A stretch of 64,000 nucleotides of DNA from Arbacia lixula (Eukaryota; Echinodermata; Echinoidea; Arbacioida; Arbaciidae), in contig OZ022593.1 in NCBI GenBank assembly GCA_963669155.1, forward strand, positions 19,821,683 through 19,885,682, written 5' to 3'. A program made the translations under genes and the position numbers. Positions 5,151 to 63,042 of the stretch are shown one piece after another. Every line of letters starts with the position of its first letter. The stretch's first letter is position 1. The notes beneath the pieces are model-generated. The model saw only the letters and a program-made list of their open reading frames with translations, did not search any database and had not been told where the DNA came from.

Positions 5151-5290
5151 TGACAAATGCCAGCCTGGATGAGAATATCGCATAGGAACTGCATGCTAAT
5201 CATCCAGAGAACCTTCACATCACGATGTTTGCTAGGACAGCAGTGTGGTGTATGCAACCCCGAGCCTCCGTTGTTAATTGAGCTACTTTT

Positions 5291-5333
5291 GGCGACCAAT
5301 AAGACTTCCGGTCCGCGACCATTAAGACTTCCG
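5291..5333 (+). repeat. Left subterminal repeat pair of the foldback element
   Basis: Two direct copies of GCGACCAATAAGACTTCCG-like sequence, at about 5292 and 5315 (the second reads GCGACCATTAAG). The inverted counterpart at 14854-14889 also has two GCGACCAATA copies, 25 bases apart. Similar A-rich sequence continues inward at both ends. Confidence 0.5.
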
Positions 5334-5639
5334 TCGTCTGCTACAAGTGAGAACAATAGAATATGGTGCTACGGTGTCTTCAAAAAAACAAATGAGAATT
5401 TAAAGCGTTAAGTGTAAAAATAAAGAGACAAGAAGTGGAATAAAAATACATTACGTGGCACTTATAAGAAAACGAAGCTGGATCATTTAAAGGATCTATG
5501 TATGTCTTTACTTGATACATAAAAAAAACGTAAAAACAATCTTTTTCTTCCGTAGAGATGATGAACAAATCCAACTTGGAAAACGATACAAGCGGCGTAT
5601 CGGCCATGTCCTAAAGAAAAAGGCGTGTAATCCTTATCA

Positions 5640-7420
5640 TAATCCAGGGCTTTATACCACTTTCATTTGACACTTAAACTAACTAATGATTTATATCGGG
5701 TAAAAGCTGAATAATTGCTCTACACTCTCATATAGGTGGCATGTCGGAATACTTTGACTGGATCTTACTGTTCCAATTTGAAATATGGGCTCAAACCGGC
5801 GTTTCGGCCAATTTATGTGCAGCATTCATAGGATAAACCGAAAATAGTCGTAATTCCTCTAACAATGTTAATACTATCGTATGACACTTAAACTAACTTA
5901 TGATTTATATCACATGAAAGCTAATTAGTTGATCTACAATCTCAAATAGGTGGCATGTCATTTTGAAATCCGGGCTCAAACAGGCATATCACGCACGGTA
6001 TTCCCAAGATTTACTGAAAATGGCCATAACTCTTCCAAAAATGTCGGGGCGTTTAAACCTATCGCATGACACTTTAACTAGCTCAAGAGTTATATGAGGT
6101 AAAAGCTGAATAGTTGCTCTTTACCCCCATATAGGTCCCATGTCGGAACTTTTTGATTCAGTCTTACTGTTTCACTTTGAATAAAGGGCTCAAACCGGCA
6201 TATTACGCACGGTATTCACCAGATTTACCGAAAATGGCCATAACTCTTCCAAAAATGTCAGGGCTTTTAAACCCATCGCATGACACTTTAACTAACTAAT
6301 AAATAGTTTGAGGTAAAGGCTGAATTATTGCTCTTTACCCCCATATAGGTCCCATGTCGGAACTTTTTGATTCAGTCTTACTGTTGCAGTTTGAATATAG
6401 GGCTCACACCGGCATATTACGCACGGTATTCACAAGATTTACCGAAAATGGCCATAACTCTTCCAAAAAAGTAGGGGCTTCTAAACCTATCGCATGACAC
6501 TTTAACTAACTAATAAATAGTATGTGGTCAAAGCTGAATAGTTGCTCTTTATCCCCATATAGGTCCCATGTCGGAACTTTTTGATTCAGTCTTACTGTTT
6601 CACTTTGAATAGAGGGCTCAAACCGGCATATAACGCGCGGTATTCACAAGATTTACCGAAAATTGCCATAACTCTTCCAACAATGTCAGGGCTTTTAAAC
6701 CCATCGCATGACACTTTAACTAACTAATAAATAGTATGAGGTCAAAGCTGAATAGTTGCTCTTTATCCCCATATAGGTCCCATGTCGGAACTTTTTGATT
6801 GGGTCTTACTGTTTCACTTTGAATAGAGGGCTCAAACCGGCATATAACGCGCGGTATTCACAAGATTTACCGAAAATTGCCATAACTCTTCCAAAAAAGT
6901 AGGGGCTTCTAAACCTATCGCATGACACTTTAACTAACTAATAAATAGTATGTGGTCAAAGCTGAATAGTTGCTCTTTATCCCCATATAGGTCCCATGTC
7001 GGAACTTTTTGATTCAGTCTTACTGTTGCAATTTGAATTCAGGGCTCAAACCGGCATATTACGCACCGCATGCGTAGGATTTACCGAAAATGGCCATAAC
7101 TCTTCCAAAAATGTTAGGGCTTTTAAACCCATCGCATGACACTTTAACTAACTAATAAATAGTATGAGGTAAAAGCTGAATAGTTGCTCTTTATCCCCAT
7201 ATAGGTCCCATGTCGGAACTTTTTGATTGGGTCTTACTGTTGCAGTTTTAATATAGGGCTCAAACCGGCATATACGCACGGTATTCACCAGATTTACCGA
7301 AAATGGCCATAACTCTTCCAAAAATGTCGGGGCTTTTAAACCCATCGCATGACACATTAACCAGCTCGTTATTTATATGAGGTCAAAGCTCAAACCGGCA
7401 TTTCGGCCAATTTACGCACT
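5640..7420 (+). repeat. Left foldback arm: about 8 tandem 214-bp units
   Basis: The landmark TGTCGG/TGTCA recurs at 5742, 5956, 6141, 6355, 6569, 6783, 6997 and 7211. Spacing is exactly 214 bases except for one shortened unit (185) between 5956 and 6141. Inner units are much more alike than the outermost two, which have drifted. Each unit includes AAACCGGCATATTACGCAC and CATGACACTTTAACTAAC. The array is the reverse complement of the one at 11010-14700. Confidence 0.95.
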
Positions 7421-8395
7421 GAGAGGAGGACGTCACCGACAGCTCCCCCACCTCTCGAGAGGACTGCGGATTGGCCTTCGTCGTCTCCATCTTCATCGAG
7501 CTCCACTCCGACCACTCCAACTCGACAAACGACTCCACCACGACCAACGGCCTCCACCACTCCAACTCAACCGACGACCTCCACCACTCCAACTCCACCG
7601 AGACCAACGACCTCCACCACTCCAACTCGACAAGCGACTCCACCCAGACCAACGACCTCCACCACTCCAACTCGACAAACGACTCCACCACGACCAACGA
7701 CCTCCACCACTCCAACTCGACAACCGACTTCACCAAGACCAACGACCTCCACCACTCCAACTCCACCTAGACCAACGACCTCCACCACTCCAACTCCACC
7801 TAGACCAACGACCTCCACCACTCCAACTCGACAAGCGACTTCACCAAGACCAACGACCTCCACCACTCCAACTCGACAAACGACTCCACCAAGACCAACG
7901 ACCTCCACCACTCCAACTCGACAAGCGACTCCACCAAGACCAACGACCTCCACCACTCCAACTCGACAAGCGACTCCACCAAGACCAACGACCTCCACCA
8001 CTCCAACTCGACAAGCGACTCCACCAAGACCAACGACCTCCACCACTCCAACTCGACAAGCGACTCCACCCAGACCAACGACCTCCACCACTCCAACTCG
8101 ACAAGCGACTCCACCCAGACCAACGACCTCCACCACTCCAACTCGACAAACGACTCCACCAAGACCAACGACCTCCACCACTCCAACTCGACAAACGACT
8201 CCACCCAGACCAATGACCTCCACCTCCAATGACCTCCACCACTCGACAGATGACTTCACGCAGACCAACGACCTCCACTCCAACTCGACAGACCGCTCGA
8301 CTTGAGAAGACACTCACTCCAGTGACTCGAGGGATGACACCTAGACATAACAGGCTGAACTCGTCGGATGTTTTACTAATACTGGATGAAATCAC
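7361..8395 (+). pseudogene. Foldback-core gene, exon with 45-bp Thr/Pro/Arg repeats
   Basis: The frame that starts open inside the left arm (after a TAA at 7358) reads TPPRPTTSTTPTRQA repeats of 15 residues (45 bp) for roughly 16 units from about 7500 to 8215. It ends with a unique segment, LNSSDVLLILDEIT, before a GTAAG donor at 8396 (phase 2). No ATG is seen in this frame near the start, so an upstream exon or a start inside the arm is needed. A 16-bp duplication near 8210-8240 shifts the frame between the repeats and the unique tail, so this copy looks broken. The repeats are low complexity and give no functional hint. Splice phase agrees with the exon at 8864, which is why I assign it to the same gene. 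Confidence 0.5.
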
Positions 8396-8863
8396 GTAAG
8401 TTTGATCATGACGTGCGTATAAGTCAATATTTAGATTAAAATACGAACGTATTGTGCTAGGCAGCATCAATGAATCATATTCAACTCAATGTTAATGAGC
8501 ACAATTTGGTTTAAGTTGATTAAGTTCGTAAATACTTGTGAGCATCAGCACTCTTATCAATTCAGGCCACTGATTGTTTCACTTTTTAACATTAGAGCTG
8601 AAAAGAGTTCTGTAGGATACAATTTCCGTCTTGATTGTAGATTTTGAATTTGTGTTCCATACAAGTAGCTCTAGTCACCACCCTCTATCTCCCTCTCACT
8701 CTTTCTGTGACTGTCTGTCTTTCTTTCTTCCTGGCCCGTGTCCGATGTCGCTATATTTTGTATGGGGGATGCTTTTTCGCCTCCTGACACATTTGTTTGT
8801 TAATACGGATTTTGTTATTTGATTAACCTTATTACTACCATGTTTCTGTGTGTATGCATATAG

Positions 8864-9089
8864 CGCACCAGACTTTCTCCTTAGTCCATCCGCCTGTGGG
8901 CATGCGGGATGTGAGGTCATCACACTTATTGATAGTCGACATGCGGGGTGGTACTCAAGCGACATCATACTCAACCCAAAGACCAGGAGGGTGTCATCTT
9001 CTACTTCTCGTAAACGGGCCAAGAAGGTGTCGAGGCGCCGCGATACCAATACATCCACCGATCACGCTGACATTGACCAAATCCTAGAG
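8864..9089 (+). pseudogene. Foldback-core gene, second exon (basic region)
   Basis: Bounded by ATATAG (ends 8863) and GAG|GTATGT (9090). It enters in phase 2 as the previous exon requires, leaves in phase 0, and is fully open for 75 codons. The protein starts APDFLLSPSACGHAGCE, has a HAGWYSSDIILNP segment, and then a basic Ser/Arg/Lys run (SRKRAKKVSRRR) that looks like a nuclear-localisation or nucleic-acid-binding patch. No family is recognised. It lies in the core of the foldback element between the arms and is probably part of the element's own gene. Confidence 0.55.
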
Positions 9090-9542
9090 GTATGTAACAC
9101 TGGCTGATAACCTTTGGGTAATATTAAAGTAGACATAAATTCGATGTCTTTTACTATGGCTCCACATTCTCGAGTACAGAAAGTTATTATTTGAGCTAAT
9201 GCCTCGACAAAAAATGAAGAAATGTGATCAACATACCACCTCGTGAGTATCTTACGAGAATACTGTTATGATTTGGGGACCGTAACACCGTTGAGACGGA
9301 TTGATGAGTATATGCATAATGTTATGAATTCTTTATTTAAAGAGGATGAACATGTTTTGATTACAGAAATTGGAAAAAAACTTTCGACGTAGTATATCGT
9401 AGATTTTTATATTAGATATAGTGTCCGCTTCGCCAGACCAAACCTTAATGTCTACTATGTAAATATTTTGAATGCACTGAATGGATATTACTTAACAAAT
9501 CAATATGTGTCTAAATATCTGATGCTTTTTGTACATAATTAG

Positions 9543-11023
9543 GAATTCGAACAAGAGGAATTGATTTCTACTCCTGCACACCGAACAAGATCACGATGTC
9601 GTCGACGCTGCAAAGTTCAAAACAGTTTGGTTGGTATGCACGCTCCAAAGATGTTGGGGGGTTCTCCAGCTTCTAGCAAGCGTTTTGGTCGGCATGGTAG
9701 ACGTAAGTATTCTTCCATTAATCTCAATGAAGTTGCAAGTGCCATAGTTCATACAATCAACGGAGCTGAAATTCCTGCATTTGACTCTATTTTCTATAAA
9801 AAAAAAAGTAGCAACGAAGCTGGAATGGCCAACATCGCGTCATAAAAAATCAGTGATATTGCTTAGGCTGTACTGGAATGAAAATAGGGGTAACATTAGA
9901 GAGCTAGTACAGGAGTTAATTCAATTACAATATCCTACTGCCAGTGAAGTGATGTCAAAGGATCCCGAATCGAGTAATTCCCCAGCATTAGTAAGCCTTT
10001 CGTCCTCTACCGATGGAAAACGCACGAGAAAACGAAAGTGCATGTCAGATAACTGATTAGTCGAAGACACTGCGAAAAGGGGTATTACTCTTTACTGCAT
10101 TTGCCAAACCCCTTTACGACGATAAGTGTCAGTACATGGAATGTGATGGTTGCAGTGAGTGGTATCATAACACTTGCATGAATATTCCTCCTCATATCAA
10201 GAACGGACGAGGTGTTACATTTTACTGTGGGCGAAATGCGTGCAATAACCATGATAACGGGGAAGTAAGACTAACTACAGGTTCAAAATGTACTGCATTC
10301 GGAGGGTTGAATGAACATGTTAAAATCAAAATAGAAAGTGACGGGGTCGAAAACACAAATTCATCTGTTTTTGAAAAAGTAGGAAATATAATAGATGAAG
10401 AAGAGTCTAAAAGTGCAATGCCAAATGAAAATCAAACTCTAACCACACTTTCAGACTGCACGCCATGCTCTGAAGATATTAGATTGTATCCTAATGCTGC
10501 AAAATCGGGCATCGTCTTGGAAACAGAATTGATCATTGATAATGATTTTGATGATGAACGCGAAAAAGATATTCAGGAAAATATGTCAGACATTCAGATT
10601 CAGAATCATAGTTCGCGAACTTGTCACAATGTGATACAAAAAGAGGTTGATCATACAGACTCGCGTGCGCCGCATGATGGCGTTCATTCACACTCTTTGC
10701 CTTGTAATGGATCCAATGACCAGTTAGAAAATGAATGTAATTTTGAATCTGATCGTAAGAGAATACAGAGCGTAAACACTACTGTAGAAGGAAGCGATGC
10801 ATTGAACAATGCAAGCGGACTTACTCGTAATCTAGACGATTATTCCTGTGAAAGCGATTCAAAGAGTGCTCACCCACTTACCACTTATGCTAATGACGTG
10901 ACTATAAACGAGGAACCTGTAACTGATAACTCTTTTGAAGATGCATCATTTAAATATCAGTTACCTGATACCACATCTTTTATTTTCCCAGAAGAAGAAT
11001 GGCGTAATTTATACCGTGCGTAA
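9543..11023 (+). pseudogene. Foldback-core gene, last exon with BPTF-like PHD finger
   Basis: The exon begins after TTAG at 9542 in phase 0 (EFEQEELISTPAHRTRSR), continues with a basic region and a helix-like stretch (LYWNENRGNIRELVQELIQL), and then a PHD finger: CIC at 10096-10104, C and CDGC, then WYHNTC, then FYCGRNAC near 10230. Spacing resembles the BPTF/NURF301 PHD, a reader of methylated histone H3. An acidic Ser/Asp/Glu-rich tail ends at a TAA (11021-11023) already within the right arm. Lesions: a frame change at an A10 run (9798-9807), a TGA at 10054, and a one-base shift at about 10112 inside the PHD finger. It is therefore a decayed copy, unless slippage at the A run is used. No transposase signature was found. 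Confidence 0.6.
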
Positions 11024-14000
11024 TATGCCGGTTTGAGCCCTATATTCAAACTGCAACAGTAAGACTGAATCAAAAAGTTCCGACATGGGACCTATATGGA
11101 GGTAAAGAGCAACTATTCAGCTTTGACCTCATACTATTTATTAGTTAGTTAAAGTGTCATGCGATGGGTTTAGAAGCCCTGACATTTTTGGAAGAGTTAT
11201 GGCCATTTTCGGTAAATCCTACGCATGCGGTGCGTAATATGCCGGTTTGAGCCCTGAATTCAAACTGCAACAGTAAGACTGAATCAAAAAGTTCCGACAT
11301 GGGACCTATATGGGGGTATAGAACAACTATTCAGCTTTGACCTCATACTATTTATTAGTTAGTTAAAGTGTCATGCGATGGGTTTAAAAGCCCTGACATT
11401 TTTGGAAGAGTTATGGCCATTTTCGGTAAATCTGGTGAATACCGTGCGTAATATGTCGGTTTGAGCCCTATATTAAAACTGAAACAGTAAGACCCAATCA
11501 AAAAGTTCCGACATGGGACCTATTTGGGGGTAAAGAGCAACTATTCAGCTTTGACCTCATACTATTTATTAGTTAGTTAAAGTGTCATGCGATGGGTTTA
11601 AAAGCCCTAACATTTTTGGAAGAGTTATGGCCATTTTCGGTAAATCTGGTGAATACCGCGCGTTATATGCCGGTTTGAGCCTTCTATTCAAAGTGAAACA
11701 GTAAGACCCAATCAAAAAGTTCCGACATGGGACCTATATGGGGATAAAGAGCAACTATTCAGCTTTGACCTCATACTATTTATTAGTTAGTTAAAGTGTC
11801 ATGCGATAGGTTTAGAAGCCCCTACTTTTTTGGAAGAGTTATGGCCATTTTCGGTAAATCTGGTGAATACCGTGCGTAATATGCCGGTTTGAGCCCTATA
11901 TTCAAACTGCAACAGTAAGACTGAATCAAAAAGTTCCGACATAAGACCTATATGGGGGTAAAGAGCAACTATTCAGCTTTGACCTCATACTATTTATTAG
12001 TTAGTTAAAGTGTCATGCGATGGGTTTAAAAGCCCTAACATTTTTGGAAGAGTTATGGCCATTTTCGGTAAATCTGGTGAATACCGCGCGTTATATGCCG
12101 GTTTGAGCCCTCTATTCAAAGTGAAACAGTAAGACCCAATCAAAAAGTTCCGACATGGGACCTATATGGGGATAAAGAGCAACTATTCAGCTTTGACCTC
12201 ATACTATTTATTAGTTAGTTAAAGTGTCATGCGATAGGTTTAGAAGCCCCTACTTTTTTGGAAGAGTTATGGCCATTTTCGGTAAATCTGGTGAATACCG
12301 TGCGTAATATGCCGGTTTGAGCCCTATATTCAAACTGCAACAGTAAGACTGAATCAAAAAGTTCCGACATAAGACCTATATGGGGGTAAAGAGCAACTAT
12401 TCAGCTTTGACCTCATACTATTTATTAGTTAGTTAAAGTGTCATGCGATGGGTTTAAAAGCCCTAACATTTTTGGAAGAGTTATGGCCATTTTCGGTAAA
12501 TCTGGTGAATACCGCGCGTTATATGCCGGTTTGAGCCCTCTATTCAAAGTGAAACAGTAAGACCCAATCAAAAAGTTCCGACATGGGACCTATATGGGGA
12601 TAAAGAGCAACTATTCAGCTTTGACCTCATACTATTTATTAGTTAGTTAAAGTGTCATGCGATAGGTTTAGAAGCCCCTACTTTTTTGGAAGAGTTATGG
12701 CCATTTTCGGTAAATCTTGTGAATACCGTGCGTAATATGCCGGTTTGAGCCCTCTATTCAAAGTGAAACAGTAAGACTGAATCAAAAAGTTCCGACATGG
12801 GACCTATATGGGGATAAAGAGCAATTATTCAGCTTTGACCTCATACTATTTATTAGATAGTTAAAGTGTCATGCGATAGGTTTAGAAGCCCCTACTTTTT
12901 TGGAAGAGTTATGGCCATTTTCGGTAAATCCTACGCATGCGGTGCGTAATATGCCGGTTTGAGCCCTGAATTCAAACTGCAACAGTAAGACTGAATCAAA
13001 AAGTTCCGACATGGGACCTATATGGGGGTATAGAGCAACTATTCAGCTTTGACCTCATACTATTTATTAGTTAGTTAAAGTGTCATGCGATGGGTTTAAA
13101 AGCCCTGACATTTTTGGAAGAGTTATGGCCATTTTCGGTAAATCTGGTGAATACCGCGCGTTATATGCCGGTTTGAGCCCTCTATTCAAAGTGAAACAGT
13201 AAGAGTGAATCAAAAAGTTCCGACATGGGACCTATATGGGGATAAAGAGCAACTATTCAGCTTTGACCTCATACTATTTATTAGTTAGTTAAAGTGTCAT
13301 GCGATAGGTTTAGAAGCCCCTACTTTTTTGGAAGAGTTATGGCCATTTTCGGTAAATCCTACGCATGCGGTGCGTAATATGCCGGTTTGAGCCCTGAATT
13401 CAAACTGCAACAGTAAGACTGAATCAAAAAGTTCCGACATGGGACCTATATGGGGGTATAGAGCAACTATTCAGCTTTGACCTCATACTATTTATTAGTT
13501 AGTTAAAGTGTCATGCGATGGGTTTAAAAGCCCTGACATTTTTGGAAGAGTTATGGCCATTTTCGGTAAATCTGGTGAATACCGTGCGTAATATGCCGGT
13601 TTGAGCCCTATATTCAAACTGCAACAGTAAGACTGAATCAAAAAGTTCCGACATGGGACCTATATGGGGATAAAGAGCAACTATTCAGCTTTGACCTCAT
13701 ACTATTTATTAGTTAGTTAAAGTGCCATGCGATAGGTTTAGAAGCCCCTACTTTTTTGGAAGAGTTATGGCAATTTTCGGCAAATCTGGTGAATGCTGTG
13801 CGTAATTCAAACTGCAACAGTAAGATTAAATTAAAAAGTTCCGACATGGGACTTATATGGGGGTAAAGAGCAACTATTCAGCTTTTACCTCATATAAATC
13901 ATGAGCTAGTTAAAGTGTCATGTGATAGTTTTTAAGGCCCCTACATTTATTAAAGAGTTACGGCCATTTTCGGTAAATTCAAAAATTCAAACTGCAACAG

Positions 14001-14700
14001 TAAGATTGAATCAAAAAGTTCCGACATGGGACCTATATGGGGGTAAAGAGCAACTATTTAGCTTTGACTTCATACTATTTATTAGTTAGTTAAAGTGTCA
14101 TGCGATAGTTTTTAAAGCCCCTACATTTTTGGAAGAGTTATGGCCATTTTCGGTAAATCTTGTGAATGCCGTGCGTAATTCAAACTGCAACAGTAAGATT
14201 AAATCAAAAAGTTCCGACATGGGACTTATATGGGGGTAAAGAGCAACTATTCAGCTTTTACCTCATATAAAGCATGAGCTAGTTAAAGTGTTATGCGATA
14301 GTTTTTAAAGCCCCTACATTTTTGGAAGAATTACACGTGTTGCCATTGTCCTTTTATATGTCGCGCGTAAATTGGCCCGGTATACTTGCGAAGACCGTGC
14401 GTAATATGGCGGTATGAGCCCTGGGTTCAAACTGAAGTAATAAGACCCAATAACAAAGTTCCAACATGCCACCTATATGAGAGTAAAGAGTAAATGTTCA
14501 GCTTTCATTTGATATCAGTTGTACATTAGTGAAAGTGTCATTTGATAGTTTTTACAGCCTCGACATCTTTCAAAATGTGGGTCAAATTTACGAACATGCA
14601 CGTCCTACGAATTCCGTGCGTAAATAGACCATTACGCAGGTATCAAATTTGGAACTGTAAGATCTTAACAAAACGTTCTGGCAAGTGATCTATATCAAAA
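11010..14700 (-). repeat. Right foldback arm: about 17 tandem 214-bp units
   Basis: The landmark CCGACA recurs at 11080, 11294, 11508, 11722, 11936, 12150, 12364, 12578, 12792, 13006, 13220, 13434 and 13648, always 214 bases apart. These are followed by about five shorter, diverged units to about 14700. This array is the reverse complement of the left arm but about twice as long. Units at 11722/12150/12578 and at 11936/12364 are nearly identical pairs, giving a 428-bp higher-order period. Confidence 0.95.
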
Positions 14701-14853
14701 TAAAGAGGAAATCCTAAGCTTTCATCTTATATAATTGTTATTCTTTTTACATGCCGTACGATTATCTTACAATCACTTTTATCTCCTTACAGAGATCGTG
14801 AAAATATTTTTTTTCTTTTGTGTTTGACCCTTCGGACACCATAATCCCCCCTT

Positions 14854-14889
14854 ATTGGTCGCGGCTCATTTGCATACTATTGGTCGCCA
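14854..14889 (-). promoter_or_regulatory. Two CCAAT boxes around an octamer at the right foldback end
   Basis: Read on the minus strand, this stretch is GGCGACCAATA, then ATGCAAAT (octamer; ATTTGCAT at 14868-14875), then GCGACCAATAAG. Paired CCAAT boxes plus an octamer are a classical enhancer/promoter arrangement, known for example from sea-urchin H2B genes. Here the stretch is also the subterminal inverted repeat of the foldback element, or U3 of the adjacent gag-bearing element. Function is inferred. Confidence 0.3.
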
Positions 14890-15028
14890 GTTTCAAGGAG
14901 CGCCGTTATTACCATGGAAACACGTTAGTACCCAGTAAACGGCTGAACTGTAAATCACTGCCTAGCGTATGTTGGTAGTCCTGGATGGATGACTGAACTT
15001 GAACGAGGTATGGTCTGAGATATGACAC

Positions 15029-15046: not shown

Positions 15047-15228
15047 CGTCCAGGATAATGTACCAGCTTGAAAAACGAGAAATTTCAGGGAGAAACACGA
15101 CGACGTATAGGTTCATTTCATGCGAGGATTGACTGGCAGTCCCACGTACTCGATTCGCGGTTATAACTGATGCATTATTTCGGACACGTTCACGGGTACG
15201 ACGCCTGCATGCACGGAGACGAGTCACG

Positions 15229-15795
15229 ATGGCTTCAGCATCACCACGGTCAGTACTATTTGAGGAGTTCGACAAAGACGGAGATATCGAAGCATATTTG
15301 GACAGGCTTGACCAATATTTCATTGCTTTGGATATCACAACTGAAGCCAAGCACGAAGGTAAACGCAAAGCTATTCTCCTGAGCAGTATTGGTAGTGACA
15401 CATACAAAACGATAAGAGACTTGTCATTCCCAAACAAACCAAGTGACACAACGTACGTTAAACTGTGTGAGACTTTGAGGGGACATTTTCGCCCAAAGCG
15501 TCTGGTAGTGTCTGAAAGGTTCAAGTTTCACAACGCCAAACAGGCACAGGGACAAACGATATCCAGTTACGTCTCACATTTGAAAAAGCTTGCCTCTTCA
15601 TGTGAATTTACAGGTGGAGCACTGGAGGAAGCTCTACGCCTACGGGATCGCTTCATTGCGGGTCTGCACTCGAGCTCTACGCAGAAGAAGCTTTTGACCA
15701 AGAACTACACTTTCAAAGAAGCGGTAGAATCAGCTTTGGCAGAAGAAGCAGCATCGACTAACTCCCTGCACGTACCTTCAAGTTATTTTCCCTAG
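15229..15795 (+). pseudogene. gag: Ty3/gypsy-type gag fragment
   Basis: A 188-residue open frame starts MASASPRSVLFEEFDKDGD. It has the retrotransposon-gag pattern: an early YLDRLDQYFIA segment, then GSDTYKTIRDL, a CETLRGHF block, SSYVSHLKKLA and LRDRFIAGL. This is the capsid-like part of Ty3/gypsy gag. The frame stops at 15795 inside CT-rich simple sequence, and no zinc knuckle, protease or polymerase follows, so the element is truncated. It sits just outside the right end of the foldback element. Confidence 0.75.
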
Positions 15796-18703: not shown

Positions 18704-19864
18704 TTATGATGGGTCCAAAACCCGACCCATGAACAAAATGGAGTTACTTGGCCTATGGCGAATCAGGAAGAGGAATGGGTGATCCGCTTGGAAGAGGATA
18801 GGATTTTCTGGAGGTGGACTGGCACATCTAATCATCATGACGTCAGTTGCTGCGGCCGCTTCAGTACCCTCCTCGTTAACGTCAACAAAGGCTTTGTGAA
18901 TCACTGCGGAAACAAATAGGTCTCTGCTTCCGGAGATTCCTTCAAAATCAGCTAACCCCCCATCAAAGGCGTCTGGCATCCCCATGTGGGTCAAAGTCTC
19001 CTTGAGCCGAAAAGTGGCTTCCAGTTTAAATTTTGGCAGCACGATGTTCACTTTCCTTTCCCTCACCAGCTGGGAGTCCCATGTTTCCAGGATCTCACCA
19101 CAGAGCTTAGACTCCAGCTCAGGGAGTCCATCATCTTTTGTAGGGAGGGCAATCAACATGCTGAGGTTTCTACCTTGATAAGGCAACTCAAGCACAAGGC
19201 AATCATTGGTAGAGTCTTGAACCAGAGGAAACTGTCCAAACTGCCTCATGAAATCTCCCTTCACTGTTTTTCTGTCATCAGTTACTTTAAAGATGTCCTT
19301 TGATGTTTCACTCTCACTAAACTTTGAGGCCCAGTTTCCTTTGAAGTAGATGGCATTGATCAAGACAAGTGTTGTGTGTGAACCAAGAATTCCGGCAGGG
19401 ATGAGGTCTTTGATTTTTCCAGCTGTTTGTTCCGAGACCCAGTCGTTGATGGTCTTTCTGATTTCAGGAGGCGCAAAATCTTCAACAGGATGGATAGATG
19501 AACCGTAATACTTCCCAGTTCCTTCAGTAAAGGATTGCACGAACTTAAAGTCAGATTTGCCGTAGAGCTTGTTGGCAGACCTGAGCTGGTAGCCTGGATT
19601 GGGTGTGTATAGAAGCTGATTGAGATCCAGGAAAGCTTTGTGGACTTGGTCATTTCCCACTTGGCTGAACCCAAAGACATCGGCAATTTGCTTTGCAGTA
19701 TTTCCACTCGCTCCGAGATAGGTCATGGCTAGAGCTGTAGAAATGCTGAGCGGGGAGAAGAAGAGGTTCTTGCCCTTTTGTTCATTTCGAATGGTCCCAT
19801 AGAGTTTAACACCAAAGCCGTTGTTAGCGTGTGCAAGTTCAGTGCTATGCTTTGAAGAAGCCAT
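18704..19864 (-). CDS. Serpin, clade-B-like intracellular serine/cysteine protease inhibitor
   Basis: A single open frame of 386 residues from ATG at 19864 (MASSKHSTELAHAN) to the stop at 18704. The frame continues upstream, but this Met fits the usual serpin start and an AG acceptor lies just before it, so the 5' UTR is probably spliced. Serpin landmarks in order: FFSPLSIS, NKLYGK, INDWVSEQTAGKIKDL, LINAIYFKGNWASKF, LPYQGRNLSM, then the hinge EEGTEAAAAT at residues 331-340 and the C-terminal HPFLFLIRH...FMGRVLDPS. The small-residue hinge indicates an inhibitory serpin. Counting from Gly as P15 puts Cys347 at P1 and Arg346 at P2. There is no signal peptide, and the length fits ovalbumin-type intracellular serpins. 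The target protease is unknown; a P2-P1 Arg-Cys pair could give trypsin-like or papain-like specificity. Confidence 0.93.
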   Translation of the reverse strand: MASSKHSTELAHANNGFGVKLYGTIRNEQKGKNLFFSPLSISTALAMTYLGASGNTAKQIADVFGFSQVGNDQVHKAFLDLNQLLYTPNPGYQLRSANKLYGKSDFKFVQSFTEGTGKYYGSSIHPVEDFAPPEIRKTINDWVSEQTAGKIKDLIPAGILGSHTTLVLINAIYFKGNWASKFSESETSKDIFKVTDDRKTVKGDFMRQFGQFPLVQDSTNDCLVLELPYQGRNLSMLIALPTKDDGLPELESKLCGEILETWDSQLVRERKVNIVLPKFKLEATFRLKETLTHMGMPDAFDGGLADFEGISGSRDLFVSAVIHKAFVDVNEEGTEAAAATDVMMIRCASPPPENPILFQADHPFLFLIRHRPSNSILFMGRVLDPS

Positions 19865-21258
19865 ATTTGTTTTCTGCATACATGTAAATGTAGAAAAAGA
19901 GAGAAATAAAGATAAGAATTGTAAGAAAAAATGGGGATGTATGAGGAACGTCAAGTAAAATGCATTACAGAGAAGTGACAAGAATTTTTTTTCTTCACAA
20001 AAATAAATGGTTTTTGAAAGTTTCAAAGTCAAGAGGGATGAGTATTTGTTAAACGGTGCTCACTCAACCAGAACAATGGGTTAATTGTTGGGATAGGTAT
20101 AGTGCATCGAGAGATGAATGATAAACAATGAAAGGAAATGAATTGTGTACCAGAAATGGAATTCATTAAAAATGCATGGCAAGCCAATGATGGCAGAATC
20201 CTCAAGTTACCCTTGTGACTTCTGAAAAGTTTTGTTTTTGCCTTTAAAATTTGCCCATCACTCATGCATGACTAATTGGATCAATGTGCCTTTCACACAG
20301 AAGTTAATCAATAAGTTAAAGAAACCTGTAAAATAATTTTGCCCAAAACTTCTTTGATTATTGGGGGGGGGGGGGGGGGGGACTTACTTTTTTGTTGTGT
20401 TCATATACTGTATACAGAGCGTATAAAAAGGTAATATATGTTCAGATGATAATTCAAAAAGCATGTTTTCAAAGTAACTAGATATACATGTATGCATACA
20501 ATATAGACATTCAGATGCTAGAAGTTTTCACACTTATTTTAGATATGAAGTGCAACAAAAGTTAACATATTTCAATTGGTATGTTTCCCAAATCAGTAAT
20601 ATCACGCATCGATGAGTTCTTTGTCTTTGGAGATGACAGGTGCAAAACCCTTTTGGCAACTTTGGGCTAATGAATGAATTCCACAAGCACACAGCTAGTT
20701 TTCATCAGAAATGTGTGTTGATTCAGCTCAGGCTGATGGTTTCATTGATCACACATGAATGAATACATTGTTTACAACGGATCGACTACATGACCCATTC
20801 TTGGAAAGGGTAGTTTCACTAAATCCCAAAGTAGAATGGTATCCTAGCCCAAGTACCTTGACTTGACACCTTGTGATTCCTTCATGTGGGAACACTGAAT
20901 TAAACTAAATACATGTAATAAGTGAGACTCAAGTCAATGCCCCGCATAAACGGGGCCAACGAGGAAGTGCCTCGATCGCAACTGAAGTTACGTGCTCGGA
21001 CATTTTCCGGTAACTATCATAAAATTAGTTCAGCCTAATAATTTGATTACTCATTATAACGGTGAAATTCTGCTGACCATTTCGGTTTTAATAGATTTAC
21101 TAATTACTTGCCTGCTTCTTTTTCCCTGGCTGTTTCTTGAATTGTTCGTACCGGACTGGCCGTATAGTATCTGAGCTGCGCATACGTACTACGTACACTT
21201 GTGTGCAGGACGGGAGTGGTATACGGACTAATATAAGTACTACACAGTACATGTACTG
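19865..21258. other. Serpin 5' flank and intergenic DNA
   Basis: No further coding exon recognised. Contains a poly(G) run near 20364-20381 and, near 20940, a small stem GCCCCG/CGGGGC. The serpin promoter and 5' UTR exon should lie here, but no specific motif can be defended. Confidence 0.4.
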
Positions 21259-39789: not shown

Positions 39790-41300
39790 CCGCAGTCAGT
39801 CCTATATTAAATGAACCAGTGTCTGAAAAATAGACTACAAGTATAAACATGTAGAGTTCTTTATCATTTTAATTAAAAATTGAGTTTGTGGAATAGACTA
39901 CGTTACGTACAAAAATCTGGGTCATCTGATTCGGGCGGTCTAACATTGAATGAAACAGTGTCTGAAAAACTAGAGAAGTATATACATGTAGATTTCTTTA
40001 TAATTTCAAATTAAAAATGAGTCTGTGGAATAGACTACGTTACGTACAAAAATATGCGTCATCTGATGCGGGCGGTCTCACATTGAATGAAACAGTGTCT
40101 GAAAAAATAGACTACAAGTATTTGCATGTAGATTTCTTTATAATTTCAATCTGTCTGTGGAGTAGACTACGTTACGTACATAATGTCATCTGACGCTGTC
40201 AGTCTGACATTAAATGAAGCAGTGTCTGATAAAAGACTACAAGTACATACATGTAGATTTCTTTATAATTTCAATCATAATGAGTCTGCGGAGTAAACTA
40301 TGTTACGTACAAAAATCTGGTCATCTGACGCTGTCGGTCCTAGAATGAAACAGTGTCTGAAAAAATAGACTACAAATATATGTAGATTTCTTTATAATTT
40401 CAGTCTTATGATGGGTCTGCGGAATAGACTACTTTACGTACAAAAATCTGGTCATCTGACACGGTTGGTCCTGCATTGAATGAAACAGTGTCTGAAAAAA
40501 TAGACTACAAGTATATGTAGATTTCTTTATAATTCCAGTCTTATGATGGGTCTGCGGAATAGACTACTTAACGTACAAAAATCTGGTCATCTGACGCGGT
40601 TGGTCCCACATTGAATGAAACAGTGTCTGAAAAAATAGACGACAAGTATATGTAGATTTCTTTATAATTTCAGTCTTATGATGGGTCTGCGGAATAGACT
40701 ACTTAACGTACAAAAATCTGGTCATCTGACGCGGTTGGTCCTACATTGAATGAAACAGTGTCTGAAAAAATAGACGACAAGTATATGTAGATTTCTTTAT
40801 AATTTCAGTCTTATGATGGGTCTGCGTAATAGACTACTTTACGTAAAAAAATCTGGTCATCTGACACGGTTGGTCCTGCATTGAATGAAACAGTGTCTGA
40901 AAAAATAGACTACAAGTATATGTAGATTTCTTTATAATTTCAGTCTTATGATGGGTCTGCGGAATAGACTACTTAACGTACAAAAATCTGGTCATCTGAC
41001 GCGGTTGGTCCTACATTGAATGAAACAGTGTCTGAAAAAATAGACGACAAGTATATGTAGATTTCTTTATAATTTCAGTCTTATGATGGGTCTGCGTAAT
41101 AGACTACTTTACGTACAAAAATCTGGTCATCTGATGCGGTTGGTCCTGCATTGAATGAAACAGTGTCTGAAAAAAGAGACTACAAGTGTTTGTAGATTTC
41201 TTTATAATTTCAGTCTTATGATGGGTCTGCGGAATAGACTACGTTACGTACAAAAATCTGGTCATCTGACGCGGTCGGTCATCTGACGCGGTGACGTCTG
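39790..41300 (+). repeat. Tandem array of about 11 units, period 135 bp
   Basis: CAGTGTCTGAAAAA recurs at 39817, 39956, 40093, 40220, 40351, 40486, 40621, 40756, 40891, 41026 and 41161. The first units vary (127-139 bp), the last seven are exactly 135 bp. Each contains GTAGATTTCTTTATAATTTC, ACTACGTTACGTACAAAAAT and CATCTGACGCGGT. Homogeneity rises toward the right. Confidence 0.95.
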
Positions 41301-46760: not shown

Positions 46761-49700
46761 GTACAATGGCCTTGCATACATCCCCTTTCCAAATCTAAAT
46801 ATAGTCAAATAATCAATTCAATTTCAACTTTATTCAACCATTATTATCAAAAATAAAAAAAGCAAACAAAACATTTTCAACATAACATATACAAAAAGTA
46901 ATGGTTTGGACCCTTGTAAAGCAGTGTTCTGCTTATAAATCAGGGCCCTATTACAGACAAACAATAACTACATATACACATTTTTAAAAATAACAAACAT
47001 TAATAGTCTAAACATGCATACATATACACACACAGACATACACACGCAGACAGGCAGACACACACACACATACACATGAGGATACACACAGTGGTAGATT
47101 AGAAATCAAGATGATATAGAGAAAAGGGGAAAAGAGAAGGGGGAAAGGGATTCAAGCAGGAAGATGAAAGAAGATTTCCTACTCAGTTGAGGATGTCATT
47201 CTTTGAAATATACATTTTTATACATAGATTTAAATCTGGTAATTGTGGAACTGGATCTTATGTCATGATCAAGTGAATTCCATTCACGAACCCCAACAAA
47301 CAATAACGAATTATGCAAAAAAGTTGAACGAGAAAGGGGATGATGTAAGTTGCTACTTTGACGAGTTGGGTAATTGTGAACCGAAGAATTGGTTTGGAAC
47401 ATATTAATGAATACAGATGGTAATAATAAACATAAATATTGATGTATTTAATTTAATCAAATCAAAGACAGGAATAATTCGTAATTTAATAAATAATGGT
47501 ATACTAGGGGCCAAATTATGACTATTAGTAATAAAACGAGCAGCACGTTTTTGTAATTTATAAATTTTGATCAGTTTTGTTTTGTAAGTATTGCCCCAGG
47601 TGATATTGCAGTAATTTAGATAGGGAAGAATTGTTGCATTATAAATATTCATAAGTATGTTCCTCGGAAGAAATTTTTTCAGTTTAGACAAAATACCGGT
47701 AGTTTTAGAAATTTTAGAACAAACATAATCAATATAACATTTCCAATTCTTCAATATGAGTACCTAAAAAGAATACACTTTGTTCTCGTTCAATAGTTAC
47801 ATTGGCTATTTTAACTGGATCAATAGAATTAGGAATTTTCTTTTTCTTTGTGTGAAAAATTACATATTTTGTTTTGTCATAGTTTAAGAATGATTTATTA
47901 CATTTAAACCAAATATTCAATTTTACTAATTCTTCATTTAAAATAGATACTAACTGTGATATATCAGAATGAGAAAAACACACAACCGTATCATCAGCAA
48001 ATAATGAAAACATGAGCAATTTGGATGAGCTTATAATGTCATTAACATAAATAATAAATAACAGCGGACCGAGGACAGATCCCTGAGGAACTCCGATATT
48101 TACATTCAAATAATCAGATTCAACACCATCGACCACCACATACTGTTTTCTATTACATAAATAATTTGAAAACCATTGATGAGGAATACCTCTTACACCA
48201 TGATAATATAATTTTTTAAGTAAAATATGGTGGTCGATGGTGTCGAATGCTTTAGATAAGTCCATAAATACACCATAACAAAACATTTTATTATTAATTT
48301 CATTTAGAACATCACTTGTAAAATTTGCTACACTTAAATCAGTACTGTGTTTTTCACGGAAACCAAACTGTTTTGAAGTGATACAATTAAATTTGAGTAA
48401 ATAATCATACAATCTTTTATGCATTATCTTTTCTAATAATTTAGCAAAAATGGAAAGTAAAGCAATGGGTCTGTAATTTTCTACATTTTTAATATCATTC
48501 TTCTTGTAAACAGGTACAATCTTAGCAACTTTAAGTTTATCTGGGACTATTCCAGTGTTCAAAGATTTATTAAATACGTCACACAATGGATTAACGAAAT
48601 ATTGAATACAATTTTTTATAACTTTGGGTGAAATAGAGTCGGGCCCATTTGATTTTTCTGCTTTTAACAAAGTTGACAATTTAATTATTTCTTGAATATT
48701 TGTTGATTTAACATAAAATGAACTTATATTTGGGTTTAAAAGATATTCATCAAATGAGTGATTTTGAGTTTGGAATGATGTTGAAAGGTTTTTTCACCAG
48801 TGTTTGATGACATATTGTGTGTAATCAAATAAAGTTTTTACATCAAACTTGCTACCTCAATATCAATCACGGAATTATAATGATTAAGCTGATAATTTTT
48901 GGAGTTAAATCTATGAAGGATCGTATTAGTCATTGGTCATGTACAAACTTTTGTCTCTACTTATGGGTTGATCCGTTATGAGATACTATAGATTTACTTG
49001 TTGAATACTAAGTGTGCGCATGCTGGCAAACAGGAGAACAAACTCAATTTTGGTGTACACCTGCCACAGGTTCTGCTAAAAGATTCGAAAGGTAGAAGGG
49101 CCATGAATTAATTAAGATAACTGTCATAATTGATTTAGAGCAATGGAATCCATGTTTTGATTTGGGGTGGTACTTTTATAACATCTATAATGTAGAAATA
49201 TAATTAATCTGCTTCTTGAAATTCCTTCCTCATGCAGGGGTGCTGCATGTCAAAATCTGGTGCGATGGTTGCGATAAGAATGAGATTGCGGGGATCCGAT
49301 GGAGATGCACAGAATGTACAGCCATTGACCTCTGTACAGACTGCTACATGAATAACAAACATGATGTCTACCATGTCTTCATGAGGGTTGAAAGTTCAGA
49401 ATTAACATCTATGGGGTAGGTCCAAGATAAAAGTCATTAAAGAACATCATTGGGGTGATTCCTGGATAAAGAGAAGTAGAGGCATCTATGGGGAAGGTCC
49501 AAGATAAAAGTCATTAAAGAACATCATTGGGGTGATTCCTGGATAAAGAGAAGTAGGCATCTATGGGGAAGGTCCAAGATAAAAGTCATTAAAGAACATC
49601 ATTGGGGTGACTCCTAGATAAAGAGAAGTGGAGGCATCCATGGGGAAGGTCGAATAGAAGTAGCAATACAGAGCATATTATGTGAAGTAGGTCCGAGAGA

Positions 49701-52700
49701 AAGGGAAGTACATAACTTCTATGTGGTAGGTCCAAGAGAAATGAAAGTAGAGAACATCTATGGGGTGAGTCCTGAAGTAATTGTGTTAGAGAACATCTAT
49801 GTAAGTTCAAAGATAAAGGATAATAGAAACATCTATGAGCTGGTAGGTCCAAGAGAAATGGTACTAGATAACATCTATAAGGTAGGTCTTCGAAAAAGAG
49901 TATTACATAACATATATGATATAAGTGCAACAGAAAGGGTAGTAGATGACATATACGGGGTGTAATTCCAAGACAAGGGGTAGGATATAGCATCTATGTG
50001 GAAGCTAAAAGAGAAAGAAATGTTGTAGAGGACATATATGGGGTAGGTCCAAGAGAACACATAGTAGAAATCATATATGTGGTAGGTGGAGGAGAAACTG
50101 TAGGAGAGAACATCTATGTGAGGTCCAAGAGAAATGGTAGTAGAGGACATCTTTTAGGTAGCTTAAAGAGTTATAGAAGTAGAGAACATCTGTGTGGTAG
50201 ATCCAAGAGAAATGGTAGTAGAGGACATCTATGTGATAGATCCAAGAGAAATGGTAGTAGAGGACATATTTAAGGTAGCTTAAAAAGATATAGAAGTAGA
50301 AAACATCTATGTGGTAGGTCCAAGAGAAATGGTTGTAGAGAACATCTATGTGATAGATCCAAGAGAAATGGTACATGTAGTAGAGAACATCTTTTAGGTA
50401 GCTTAAAGAGATATAGAAGTAGAGAACATCTACGGGAGGTCCAAGAGAAAGGGTAGTAGAGAACATCTATGTGATAGATCCAAGAGAAATGGTAGTAGAG
50501 AACATCTTTTAGGTAGCTTAAAGAGATATAGAAGTAGAGAACATCTATGTGGTAAGTCCAAGAGAAAGGGTAGTAGAGAACATCTACGTAGTAGATCCAA
50601 GAGAAATGGTAGTAGAGAACATCTATGTGATAGATCCAAGAGAAATGGTAGTAGAGAACATCTTTTAGGTAGCTTAAAGAGATATAGAAGTAGAGAACAT
50701 CTATGTGGTAAGTCCAAGAGAAAGGGTAGTAGAGAACATCTACGTAGTAGATCCAAGAGAAATGGTAGTAGAGAACATCTATGTGATAGATCCAAGAGAA
50801 ATGGTAGTAGAGAACATCTTTTAGGTAGCTTAAAGAGATAAAGAAGGAGAGAACATCTATGTGGTAAGTCCAAGAGAAAGGGTAGTAGAGAACATCTACG
50901 TAGTAGATCCAAGAGAAATGGTAGTAGAGAACATCTATGTGATAGATCCAAGAGAAATGGTAGTAGAGAACATCTTTTAGGTAGCTTAAAGAGATATAGA
51001 AGTAGAGAACATCTATGTGGTAGATCCAAGAGAAATGGTGGTAGAGAAAATCTTAAAGGTAGCTTAAAGAGAAATAAAAGTAGAAAACATCTATGGGAGG
51101 TCCAAAAGAAAGGGTAGTAGAAAACATCTACGTGGTAGATCCAAGAGAAAGGGTAGTAGAGAACATCTATGTGATAGATCCAAGAGAAATGATAGTAGAG
51201 GACATCTTTTAGGTAGCTTAAAGAGATATAGAAGTAGAGAACATCTATGTGGTAGGTCCAAGAGAAATGGTAGTAGAGGACATCTTTAACGTAGCTTAAA
51301 GATAAATAGAAGTAGAGAACATCTATGGGAGGTCGAATAGAAAAGGTAGTAGAGAACATCTATGTGGTAAATCCAAGAGAAATGGTGGTAGAGAAAATCT
51401 TAAAGATAGAGATATAGAAGTAGAGAACATCTATGTGGTAGGTCCAATAGAAATAATATAAGATAACATCTTAATATAGGTAGTTCTAAGAGAAAGGGTA
51501 GTCATGATCTAGGGTTTAGGTTAGGGTCTATGTGACAGATGCAAGAGAACTTGTAGCAGAAAACATTAATGGTGTATGTCGAGACTCTGAATGAAGCATA
51601 GATGTATGTGCAAAATTGTTACACACTCTGCTGTTTTGTTATTTTCCACATTTTTCTGCTGCAGTCCAAAGATGCACCCAAGGCGTATCTCTCCTTTCCG
51701 ACTGATTCATGGAATCTTCCCAGGAGCGAAGGTCGTCAACTTTCCAGCTTGGTTCAAGAAAGGGCATGATGGTAAGGCAATCAGAAATATTTATAAGACC
51801 TTGTCAGTATGGCAAAAAAAATGTCATAAAAGCGGAGAGAGGTAGTTAGAATTTACCTTTGAGGAGCTTTTAAAAACCTGTTTGAAATGTAAAGTCCTAA
51901 TACATTTTCTTTATGTTGTAATTTTGTTGCCCAAGTATGAGCCATTGACTTGCTTGGGCGTCAACACTTGTGCCCGCGTATATCTTTTTTTAAAAAACAA
52001 ATTTTGTCCGTGGTAATACCTGTCCTTGATGTTCTTTTCTCGCTGACCAGGTCAGGGCAGGAACAGTCAGAAAACAGTGACAGAAGTGGTTCAGGGAGAG
52101 ACCAGTCCACTGCGAAAGCTGTCTGAGACAGGACACGTTCCCATAGCCTGCATTGTACCTGCATCAGGTGGTTGCGTGTACGAGGGCCACTTGCCAGTCC
52201 TTGGTAAGAATTCAGCACACTGCTCGTATTCGAGGGCAGGGGATGGGAGGTTGGGGCATGGGTTACCACTGGTGGCGATTGACATTTCCTGATATAGCAG
52301 CAGGGAGAGGGATAGGATTAGGGGCAAATATGCCCCCTCCTTGTGGCTGTCTGCCCAGATGAAGGCTGACCAAAGTAGTGTAAGCTCTGTTTATGACCCC
52401 CTTGTGTGTGATTCTGTGGACTAACATTCCAAAAGACAGCACACAATGTGTGTATTTAACAGTCAGTTTGTGGGCAGCTCCACATATTCTCAAACATAAA
52501 TACATGTTTAAGCAATAGGCCGGCCTAGAGAAAGAAATCAGGAAAGGACAATTTCATGCAGACATGGGGTTACAACACCCCACCACTACACCATACCAAC
52601 AGCATAACCATCACCAAACCATTACTCCCATCACAAGACCACCACCACACCACTACCACCACCACCACCATAACTACCACATTTCACGAGACCACCACTA

Positions 52701-61469: not shown

Positions 61470-63042
61470 TATGCCTCCGCCACGAAGTGGCTGGAGGCAT
61501 TATGTTTTCGGGTTGTCCGTCCGTCCGTCCGTCCGTCCGTACGTCCGTCCGTCCGTCCGTCCGTCCGTCCGTACGTCCGTCCGTCCGTCCGTCCGTACGT
61601 CCGTCCGTCCGTACGTCCGTCCGTCCGTACGTCCGTCCGTCTGTACGTCCGTCCGTCCGTCCGTCCGTCCCGAATCCGTTTAGGCAATATCTTGAGAACC
61701 GTTGAGCAGATTCGCTTCAAACTTAGTACATGTATGTATTGCATGAAACTAATGAAGTGTGTAAAATTGGGGTCAAATCTGATTGAGGTCAAAGGTCAAA
61801 GGTCAATGAACTTTGTAAAAGTTGCCCCAAATTGACCTTTTCCACAATAAATCTAAATCCAAGGCTGCAATTCTCATTAAACATGGTACAAAGATGTATC
61901 ACTTCTTGGGGATAGACTGGTGACATTTTTGGTAAAATTCCTGAAAGGTCAGAGGTCAAAGGTCAATGAAATTTGTGAAAATTTGCCAAGAATTGACCTT
62001 TTTCACAATAAATCCAAATCCAAGGATGCAATTCTCATTAAACATGGTACAAAGATAGATTACTACTTGGGGATAGACTGGTGACATTTTTGGTAAAATT
62101 CCTGAAAGTTCAGAGGTCAAAGGTCAATGAACTTTGCCAAAATTGGCTAGAAATTGCCCCAAACTTTCAATTTTTCACAATAAATCCAAACCCAATGGTG
62201 CAATTCCAACCAAACATAGTGAAACGATGGATCACTACTTTTGGGTAGACTGGTGACATTGTTGGTGAAATTGCTGGAAGGTCAGAGGTCAAAGGTCAAT
62301 GAACTTTGCAAAATTGATATTTTTCACAATAAACCTAAATCCAAATCCAATGGCGCAATTCTAACCAAATATGATACAGAGATGTATCACTTCATGGAGG
62401 TAGACTGGTGAAAGCTTGGGTAAAACTCCTGAGAGTTCAAAGGTCAAAGGTCAATGAACTTTGCCAAAAATTGACTAAAAATTGCCCCCAAAGTGAAAAT
62501 TTTCAAAATATATCCAAATCCAATGGAGCAATACGAACCAAACATGGTGCAAAGATGGATCACTACTAGACTGATGACATTTTTGGTGAAATTTCTCAAA
62601 GGTCAGGGATCAAAGGTTAATGAACTTTGCCAAAATTGGCTAAAAATTGCCCCCAAATAGATATTTTTCACATTGAATCCAATACTAATGATTCAATTCA
62701 AACCAAAGATAGTACAGAGATGAATCACTTCATGGAGGTAGACTGGTGAAGTTTGGGTAAAATTCCTGAAAGGTCAAAGATCAATAAACTTCACCCAAAA
62801 TTGGCTAATTTTAAACAAACTTGATACAAGGATGGATTTAGACAGACTGGTTAGATTGGAAGTCAAAGAGGTCAAAAGTCAATGAACATTGCCAAACTTG
62901 GCTAAACTTGAAAAAACAGAATGCGATATTTTTATTTCACATAGGAGCAATGGTACATTGCCCACCAAACATGCACATTTTCTGAGAATAGCAAAGAGGC
63001 GGAGGCATATTTATCGACTGCGGGGCAGTCGAATTGCTCTAG
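61470..63042 (+). repeat. Dispersed repeat, ATGCCTCCGCCACGAAGTGG family (full-length copy)
   Basis: Self-complementary head ATGCCTCCGCCACGAAGTGG-CTGGAGGCAT, a (GTCCGTCC)n run with GTAC interruptions (61514-61668), about eight diverged internal units of about 150 bp each with AGGTCAAAGGTCAATGAACT, and the tail GAGGCGGAGGCATA...GGCAGTCGAATTGCTCTAG. It has no coding capacity and shares head and tail with 37091-37770. Confidence 0.85.

Follow-up and report, generated by a model that had tools for sequence, protein, structure and literature searches.

A very likely Rehavkus/Mutator-type transposon relic with foldback ends, and the transposase context of its PHD finger, in the sea urchin Arbacia lixula

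The question raised by this locus is how a sequence encoding a PHD finger came to lie between two long tandem arrays of opposite orientation: whether it was captured by a mobile element, is an ordinary gene beside a satellite, or belongs to the element itself. The locus lies in the window, the whole stretch of 64,000 nucleotides of Arbacia lixula DNA that was analysed (GCA_963669155.1, contig OZ022593.1, positions 19,821,683 to 19,885,682 of the forward strand). The copy in the window very likely belongs to a large cut-and-paste transposon family of Rehavkus/Mutator type with foldback ends, as a non-autonomous member with an internal deletion. The PHD "gene", judged from reading frames in other copies, is the middle of a transposase gene and not cargo.

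Comparison with other copies sets the limits of the window element at 5277-14902 (9,626 bp), which makes the limits of 5151-15027 given by a first-pass annotation too wide. The element and its parts are arranged as follows.

5268..5276, no strand: left target site duplication, 9 bp, CCGTTGTTA, 8/9 bases the same as 14903-14911
5277..5640, plus strand: left terminal domain, of which the right end repeats only the subterminal motifs
5290..5301, plus strand: subterminal motif TGGCGACCAATA, 14-25 bases from the left end
5313-5326: second, related left motif CCGCGACCATTAAG, starting at 37 from the left end
5646..7361, plus strand: left arm, about two degenerate and 6.5 regular 214-bp units
7421..8395, plus strand: remnant exon, 5' part (SGNH hydrolase end) missing; upstream continuation in copies L015 and L031
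~7505-8224, plus strand: 45-bp minisatellite coding a Ser/Thr/Pro-rich repeat, within exon 7421..8395
8864..9089, plus strand: second exon, placed by AG/GT borders and phase; L015 differs at 1 base within it
9543..10995, plus strand: 5' part of the long third exon, truncated at 10995, at the start of the arm
10093..10250, plus strand: PHD finger of BPTF/SPP1 type, frameshifted in the window copy
11011..14333, minus strand: right arm, 13.1 regular plus degenerate 214-bp units
14334..14902, minus strand: right terminal domain, placed by comparison with other copies, ending ..TTTCAAGGAGCG
14851-14864, minus strand: second right motif CCGCGACCAATAAG, starting at 39 from the right end
14878..14889, minus strand: subterminal motif TGGCGACCAATA, 14-25 bases from the right end
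14903..14911, no strand: right target site duplication, 9 bp, CCGTTATTA

The 214-bp unit is regularly repeated 6.5 times at 5972-7361 and 13.1 times at 11011-13806, with 91-92% matches. The arms are 92-94% complementary across ~1.3 kb and stand in opposite orientation around a 3.6-kb core, as the first-pass annotation had described; the matching 12-mer that it had seen near both ends lies 14-25 bases inside each true end. Long inverted arms of tandem repeats around a variable core, the arrangement that defines the foldback structural class, are thus present.

The genome searched (607 Mb in 590 contigs) includes the window. From the best 26 of 214 candidates, 23 copies were mapped, the window copy among them: five have gene sequence, 16 have arms that meet at a loop of 3-61 bp, and two have a left arm alone, one running into an N gap and the other passing into different sequence. 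The 214-bp units are present in both arms of 21 of the 23 copies (L029 has just one in its right arm) and only in the left arm of the other two. Counting the window, 10 places hold more than 60 bases of the core at ≥97% identity. In viral contigs, patterns built from L010 residues 171-1055 had no match.

The ends are fixed and frequently paired. The left-end pattern (first 33 bases) has 145 genome matches and the right-end pattern (last 40 bases) 58, at up to three mismatches, with no match for either reversed control. Within 20 kb and in the right orientation, 38 of the 58 right ends pair with left ends among 100 listed of 145 and 20 do not, a count without a computed chance value; two of the 38 pairs, 144 and 311 bp, are too short for whole elements. 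Among the same 100 left ends, 28 are unpaired. The canonical left end, ATTGAGCTAC, starts at 5277 in the window copy and is found in 16 of the 18 mapped copies with two ends, this one included; both ends are canonical in 15. A 9-bp target duplication flanks 10 of these 18 copies (eight perfect, two with 8/9 bases), and the maximum among 306 swapped pairs was 6/9. At lengths of 5-8 or 10-12, no perfect duplication was found among the 18. Since copies are dispersed, ends paired and target sites duplicated over 9 bp, a mobile foldback-like unit is supported.

No mobile element at all would be needed if a satellite array were interrupted by an ordinary single-copy gene or lay beside one. The arrays are long, and units from the same or from different copies are about 89% identical, as that explanation would have it. 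It is nevertheless refuted by the multi-copy core, the paired fixed ends and the 9-bp duplications, and is left with practically no probability. A single-copy core among unrelated satellite blocks had been named in the first-pass annotation as the observation that would speak against an element; the core lies in 10 places, and the elements that contain the arrays studied have fixed ends. Homogenisation of units within copies was sought in 400 units from 23 copies (units aligned over <205 bases were dropped) and was absent, mean identity being 0.894 within an arm, 0.889 between arms of one copy, and 0.890 and 0.888 between copies.

The core of the window copy is a gene remnant. Read by eye, exons 7421-8395, 8864-9089 and 9543-10995 are bordered by GT/AG and fit one another in phase, and the PHD finger is recognised in the window frame (PF00628, E 4.8e-6). 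In L011, the best solved relative of the PHD finger is BPTF (E 1.6e-7), with which it has the tyrosines and the tryptophan of the aligned stretch in common. PHD fingers of the BPTF type read methylation of lysine 4 of histone H3 (H3K4). Thus the three-exon PHD gene of the first-pass annotation stands as to borders, phases and domain, but not as an intact gene: the frame of the third exon is lost at a poly-A tract near 9797, a stop follows at 10054-10056, and comparison with L011 reveals an in-frame stop in the window copy immediately ahead of the PHD finger and a one-base frameshift within the finger. L011 carries its own stop after the PHD finger. The window copy begins inside the minisatellite exon, ends at 10995, and lacks the transposase region, USP and Ulp1 that other copies encode. 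It is a non-autonomous, internally deleted relic that has lost both ends of its gene and is frameshifted. Between the window copy and L011 the poly-A tract itself differs by 4 bases, and both copies go out of frame at it; slippage in this coding exon could be either mutational or exploited in expression.

The junction at 10995 is common to the window copy, L011 and L031. Because L011 and L031 share it, the deletion form has itself been copied; both are flanked by perfect 9-bp duplications of different sequence, from which copying by transposition in trans may be inferred.

What the intact gene encodes was read from several copies. At C16 and C18:7.47 Mb, the counterpart of the third exon belongs to open frames of 1,948 codons, which a genome search with the first 1,055 residues of the C82 copy (L009 and L010) identified at 99% identity over those residues. 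The PHD query falls inside the same two frames, which also contain a region with the residue order D-D-CxxH-W-E and the first part of USP. The C82 copy starts at the equivalent of window 10284 and therefore has no PHD finger; its open frame of 1,633 codons, the first 170 residues of which match the window at 98%, contains the D-D-CxxH-W-E region, the whole of USP and an Ulp1 domain. Past residue 1055, only C82 supplied the protein sequence; judged by their length, the 1,948-codon frames would reach the same stop.

The two parts of USP match PF00443 (E 2.4e-15 and 1.1e-7) with USP proteins as solved relatives, and Ulp1 matches PF02902 (E 3.4e-17) with SENP2 and SENP1 as the best. Motifs of these proteases were recognised by eye: Cys and His boxes in USP, and H, D, Q and C in Ulp1. 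L015 and L031 reach farther upstream than window 7421 and there encode parts of an SGNH hydrolase. When joined, two exons of L015 score 44.3 bits against PF13472 (cut-off 32.9), while the L031 exons taken singly stay under the cut-off (18.0 and 20.4 bits); in L015 the reading frame of the hydrolase continues through to the 15-residue repeat that the 45-bp minisatellite encodes. The SGNH hydrolase was thus read in L015 and L031 and Ulp1 in C82, and the C16 and C18 copies were located by matches, not base by base. The open frame at C16 lies between a left end at 15675181 and a right end near 15650933; the two ends are on the minus strand, ~24.2 kb from each other. In the L015/L034 intron, at the equivalent of window 9448, there is a copy-specific insertion of ~0.5 kb flanked by TTAA, which looks like a small non-autonomous transposon.

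These frames bear directly on whether the PHD finger was captured. Taken alone, the window copy is what a foldback transposon with a captured host PHD gene would look like, in the manner of Pack-MULE cargo, since its PHD exons lie between arms and no transposase is present. In two copies, however, the PHD finger and the transposase-like region lie in one frame of 1,948 codons, and in a second family at 31-33% identity they share a frame as well. Host-gene cargo is thereby largely refuted, was rejected, and is considered very unlikely. The first-pass annotation, which had proposed a large foldback-like mobile unit carrying a chromatin-reader-type gene, was correct about the mobile unit, as copies, paired ends and duplications attest, but not about the gene as a passenger: because the PHD finger shares an open frame with the transposase-like region, it is read here as part of the transposase gene.

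The transposase-like region spans 600 residues between PHD and USP. The second family has members at C1:30240149-30244159 (frame of 2,317 codons) and C10:12131548-12135399 (frame of 1,433 codons), of which L037 and L038 are parts, and both members have USP and, in the same frame, a PHD finger. Identity to the window family is 33% in the genome match and 31% for the one member aligned, in which D387, D463, C510xxH513, W680 and E718 are kept. The order in active Muta1 is D214, D283, CxxH, W401 and E419 (PMC5225508). The conserved order is the same as the catalytic or essential order of Muta1, which suggests a Mutator-like transposase region.

A foldback element of another superfamily, either hAT or P like Galileo, would share some of these features, since CxxH and W are common to hAT (PMC5225508) and foldback ends arise in the P superfamily, as Galileo illustrates (PMC4079207, PMC3169594). 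The duplications, however, are of 9 bp, with a perfect 8-bp one in none of the 18 two-ended copies; no THAP or hAT domain was found in the segments scanned against Pfam, which covered the first exons of the gene in part; and the PHD finger and tandem arrays are as in Rehavkus. Such an origin is regarded as improbable, though less so than host-gene capture.

Several observations weigh against the assignment to a Rehavkus/Mutator-type family. The outermost 13 bases of the two ends are not inverted repeats, and plain local alignment of both 90-base ends scores 24, where 2,000 shuffles gave a 95% level of 18 and a maximum of 28; this control leaves the equal distance of the motifs from the ends out of account. 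Eight of the 18 two-ended copies have no target duplication (at most 4/9 match), three of them with a non-canonical end. The DDE-like region matched nothing in Pfam up to E 10, although filters there discard most weak matches, and nothing in the PDB of solved structures up to E 10, so that its assignment rests on residue order and on conservation in one other family; a two-row profile matched USP chains only. No right end for the C18:7.47-Mb copy was found among the 58 right-end matches or in a further search (best 40 of 129 candidates). Finally, Rehavkus is described with terminal inverted repeats (TIRs) of 26-400 bp and a minisatellite before the 3' TIR (PMC6446971), whereas the arms here are inverted arrays of kilobase length.

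If the Rehavkus/Mutator-type assignment is correct, the transposase of intact copies would bind the paired subterminal motifs, and perhaps also the 214-bp units, cut both ends and insert the element with a 9-bp stagger. The PHD finger may tether it to H3K4-methylated chromatin, and the USP and Ulp1 proteases may strip ubiquitin or SUMO off host factors or off the transposase. The window copy would move only in trans. Genes may be lost through internal deletion, for example by interrupted gap repair, the arrays may grow via unequal exchange, and exchange between the inverted arms could flip the core.

Inverted loops and cores would fit such an exchange. A loop of 50 bp is one sequence in 11 of the 16 coreless copies, in one orientation in nine and inverted in two (L013 and L023); the other five differ. 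The core is opposite to the ends in two of the 12 places with both ends and a core match, at C4:22.99 Mb (transposase match) and C4:1.37 Mb (minisatellite match). Separately, among 100 listed of 145 left ends, 17 pairs face each other within 6 kb, 2-5.8 kb apart (e.g., C2:24967578-24970146), and five of these are spaced at 2.56-2.57 kb. They are probably non-autonomous derivatives with two left ends.

A more complete picture is offered tentatively, at slightly less than an even chance. A single transposase polypeptide would join an H3K4 methylation-reading PHD finger, a Mutator-type core, a deubiquitinase and a SUMO protease, with the SGNH hydrolase and the minisatellite-coded linker upstream. 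Such a foldback element would target active chromatin and edit ubiquitin and SUMO there, while its arrays would still be generating derivatives with flipped cores and with two left ends. Foldback ends built of long tandem units are tied to long open transposase frames in one genome, which puts two questions within reach of tests: why transposases recruit histone readers as well as ubiquitin and SUMO proteases, and by what process foldback arms and satellites expand.

Other features of the window are separate from the element. A 451-residue open frame at 18704-20059 (minus strand) contains a complete serpin domain (PF00079, E 4.9e-122). A 220-residue frame immediately to the right of the element, at 15133-15795 (plus strand), is retrotransposon gag-like by eye, with no Pfam match at E 0.01. 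Further tandem arrays lie at 39799-41280 (~135 bp unit), 49404-51502 (~39/78 bp) and 61816-62784 (~161 bp).

Among known systems, the window family most likely belongs with the Rehavkus group, which fits best; the first-pass annotation had matched it to no described family. Rehavkus, a Repbase group that includes Rehavkus-1_TC and Rehavkus-1_HR, was reported from Arthropoda and Annelida (PMC6446971) and has in common with the window family a 9-bp target duplication, a PHD finger in the transposase, and minisatellite or tandem arrays at the termini. Rehavkus-1_TC of Tribolium, at 9.5 kb, has inverted termini with arrays of a 164-bp unit (PMC10218199), and is similar in size to the window copy, which has 9,626 bp and 214-bp units. 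Compared by description, the window family differs in having USP, Ulp1 and SGNH, which the available parts of the Rehavkus reports do not mention, and in one copy that spans ~24 kb. Long-unit foldbacks are also known from Tetris of Drosophila virilis, which likewise has a terminal domain, 220-bp tandem units (TIR-220) in inverted arms, a variable core and duplications of 8-10 bp (PMC4079207). A transposase-encoding copy of Tetris was not found by its authors, whereas the window family has long open frames. Tm1, a Mutator/Foldback element of the root-knot nematode, also has terminal bases that are asymmetric and lie outside its inverted repeats, arms containing tandem repeats, duplications of 9 bp and derivatives that lack a transposase, but its units are ~14 bp and its transposase is of FLYWCH type with 496 residues (PMC3169594). 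Ginger1 and Ulp1-bearing Mutator elements resemble the window family in the fusion of Ulp1, and in one Ginger1 also of PHD, to a transposase; Ginger1 differs in its Gypsy-type integrase, and USP together with Ulp1 is not described in the available part of that source (PMC2836005). The same source mentions a C19 peptidase with a Trichomonas transposase. Each of the PHD, Ulp1 and C19 domains has been described on its own in other transposons, and PHD and Ulp1 have been described together once (PMC2836005). No DNA transposon with USP, Ulp1 and PHD was named in the full-text literature searched, as far as its sources were available, a search that did not extend to Repbase. As far as searched, the combination of domains, the ~24-kb size at C16 and the flipped and two-left-ended derivatives are new.

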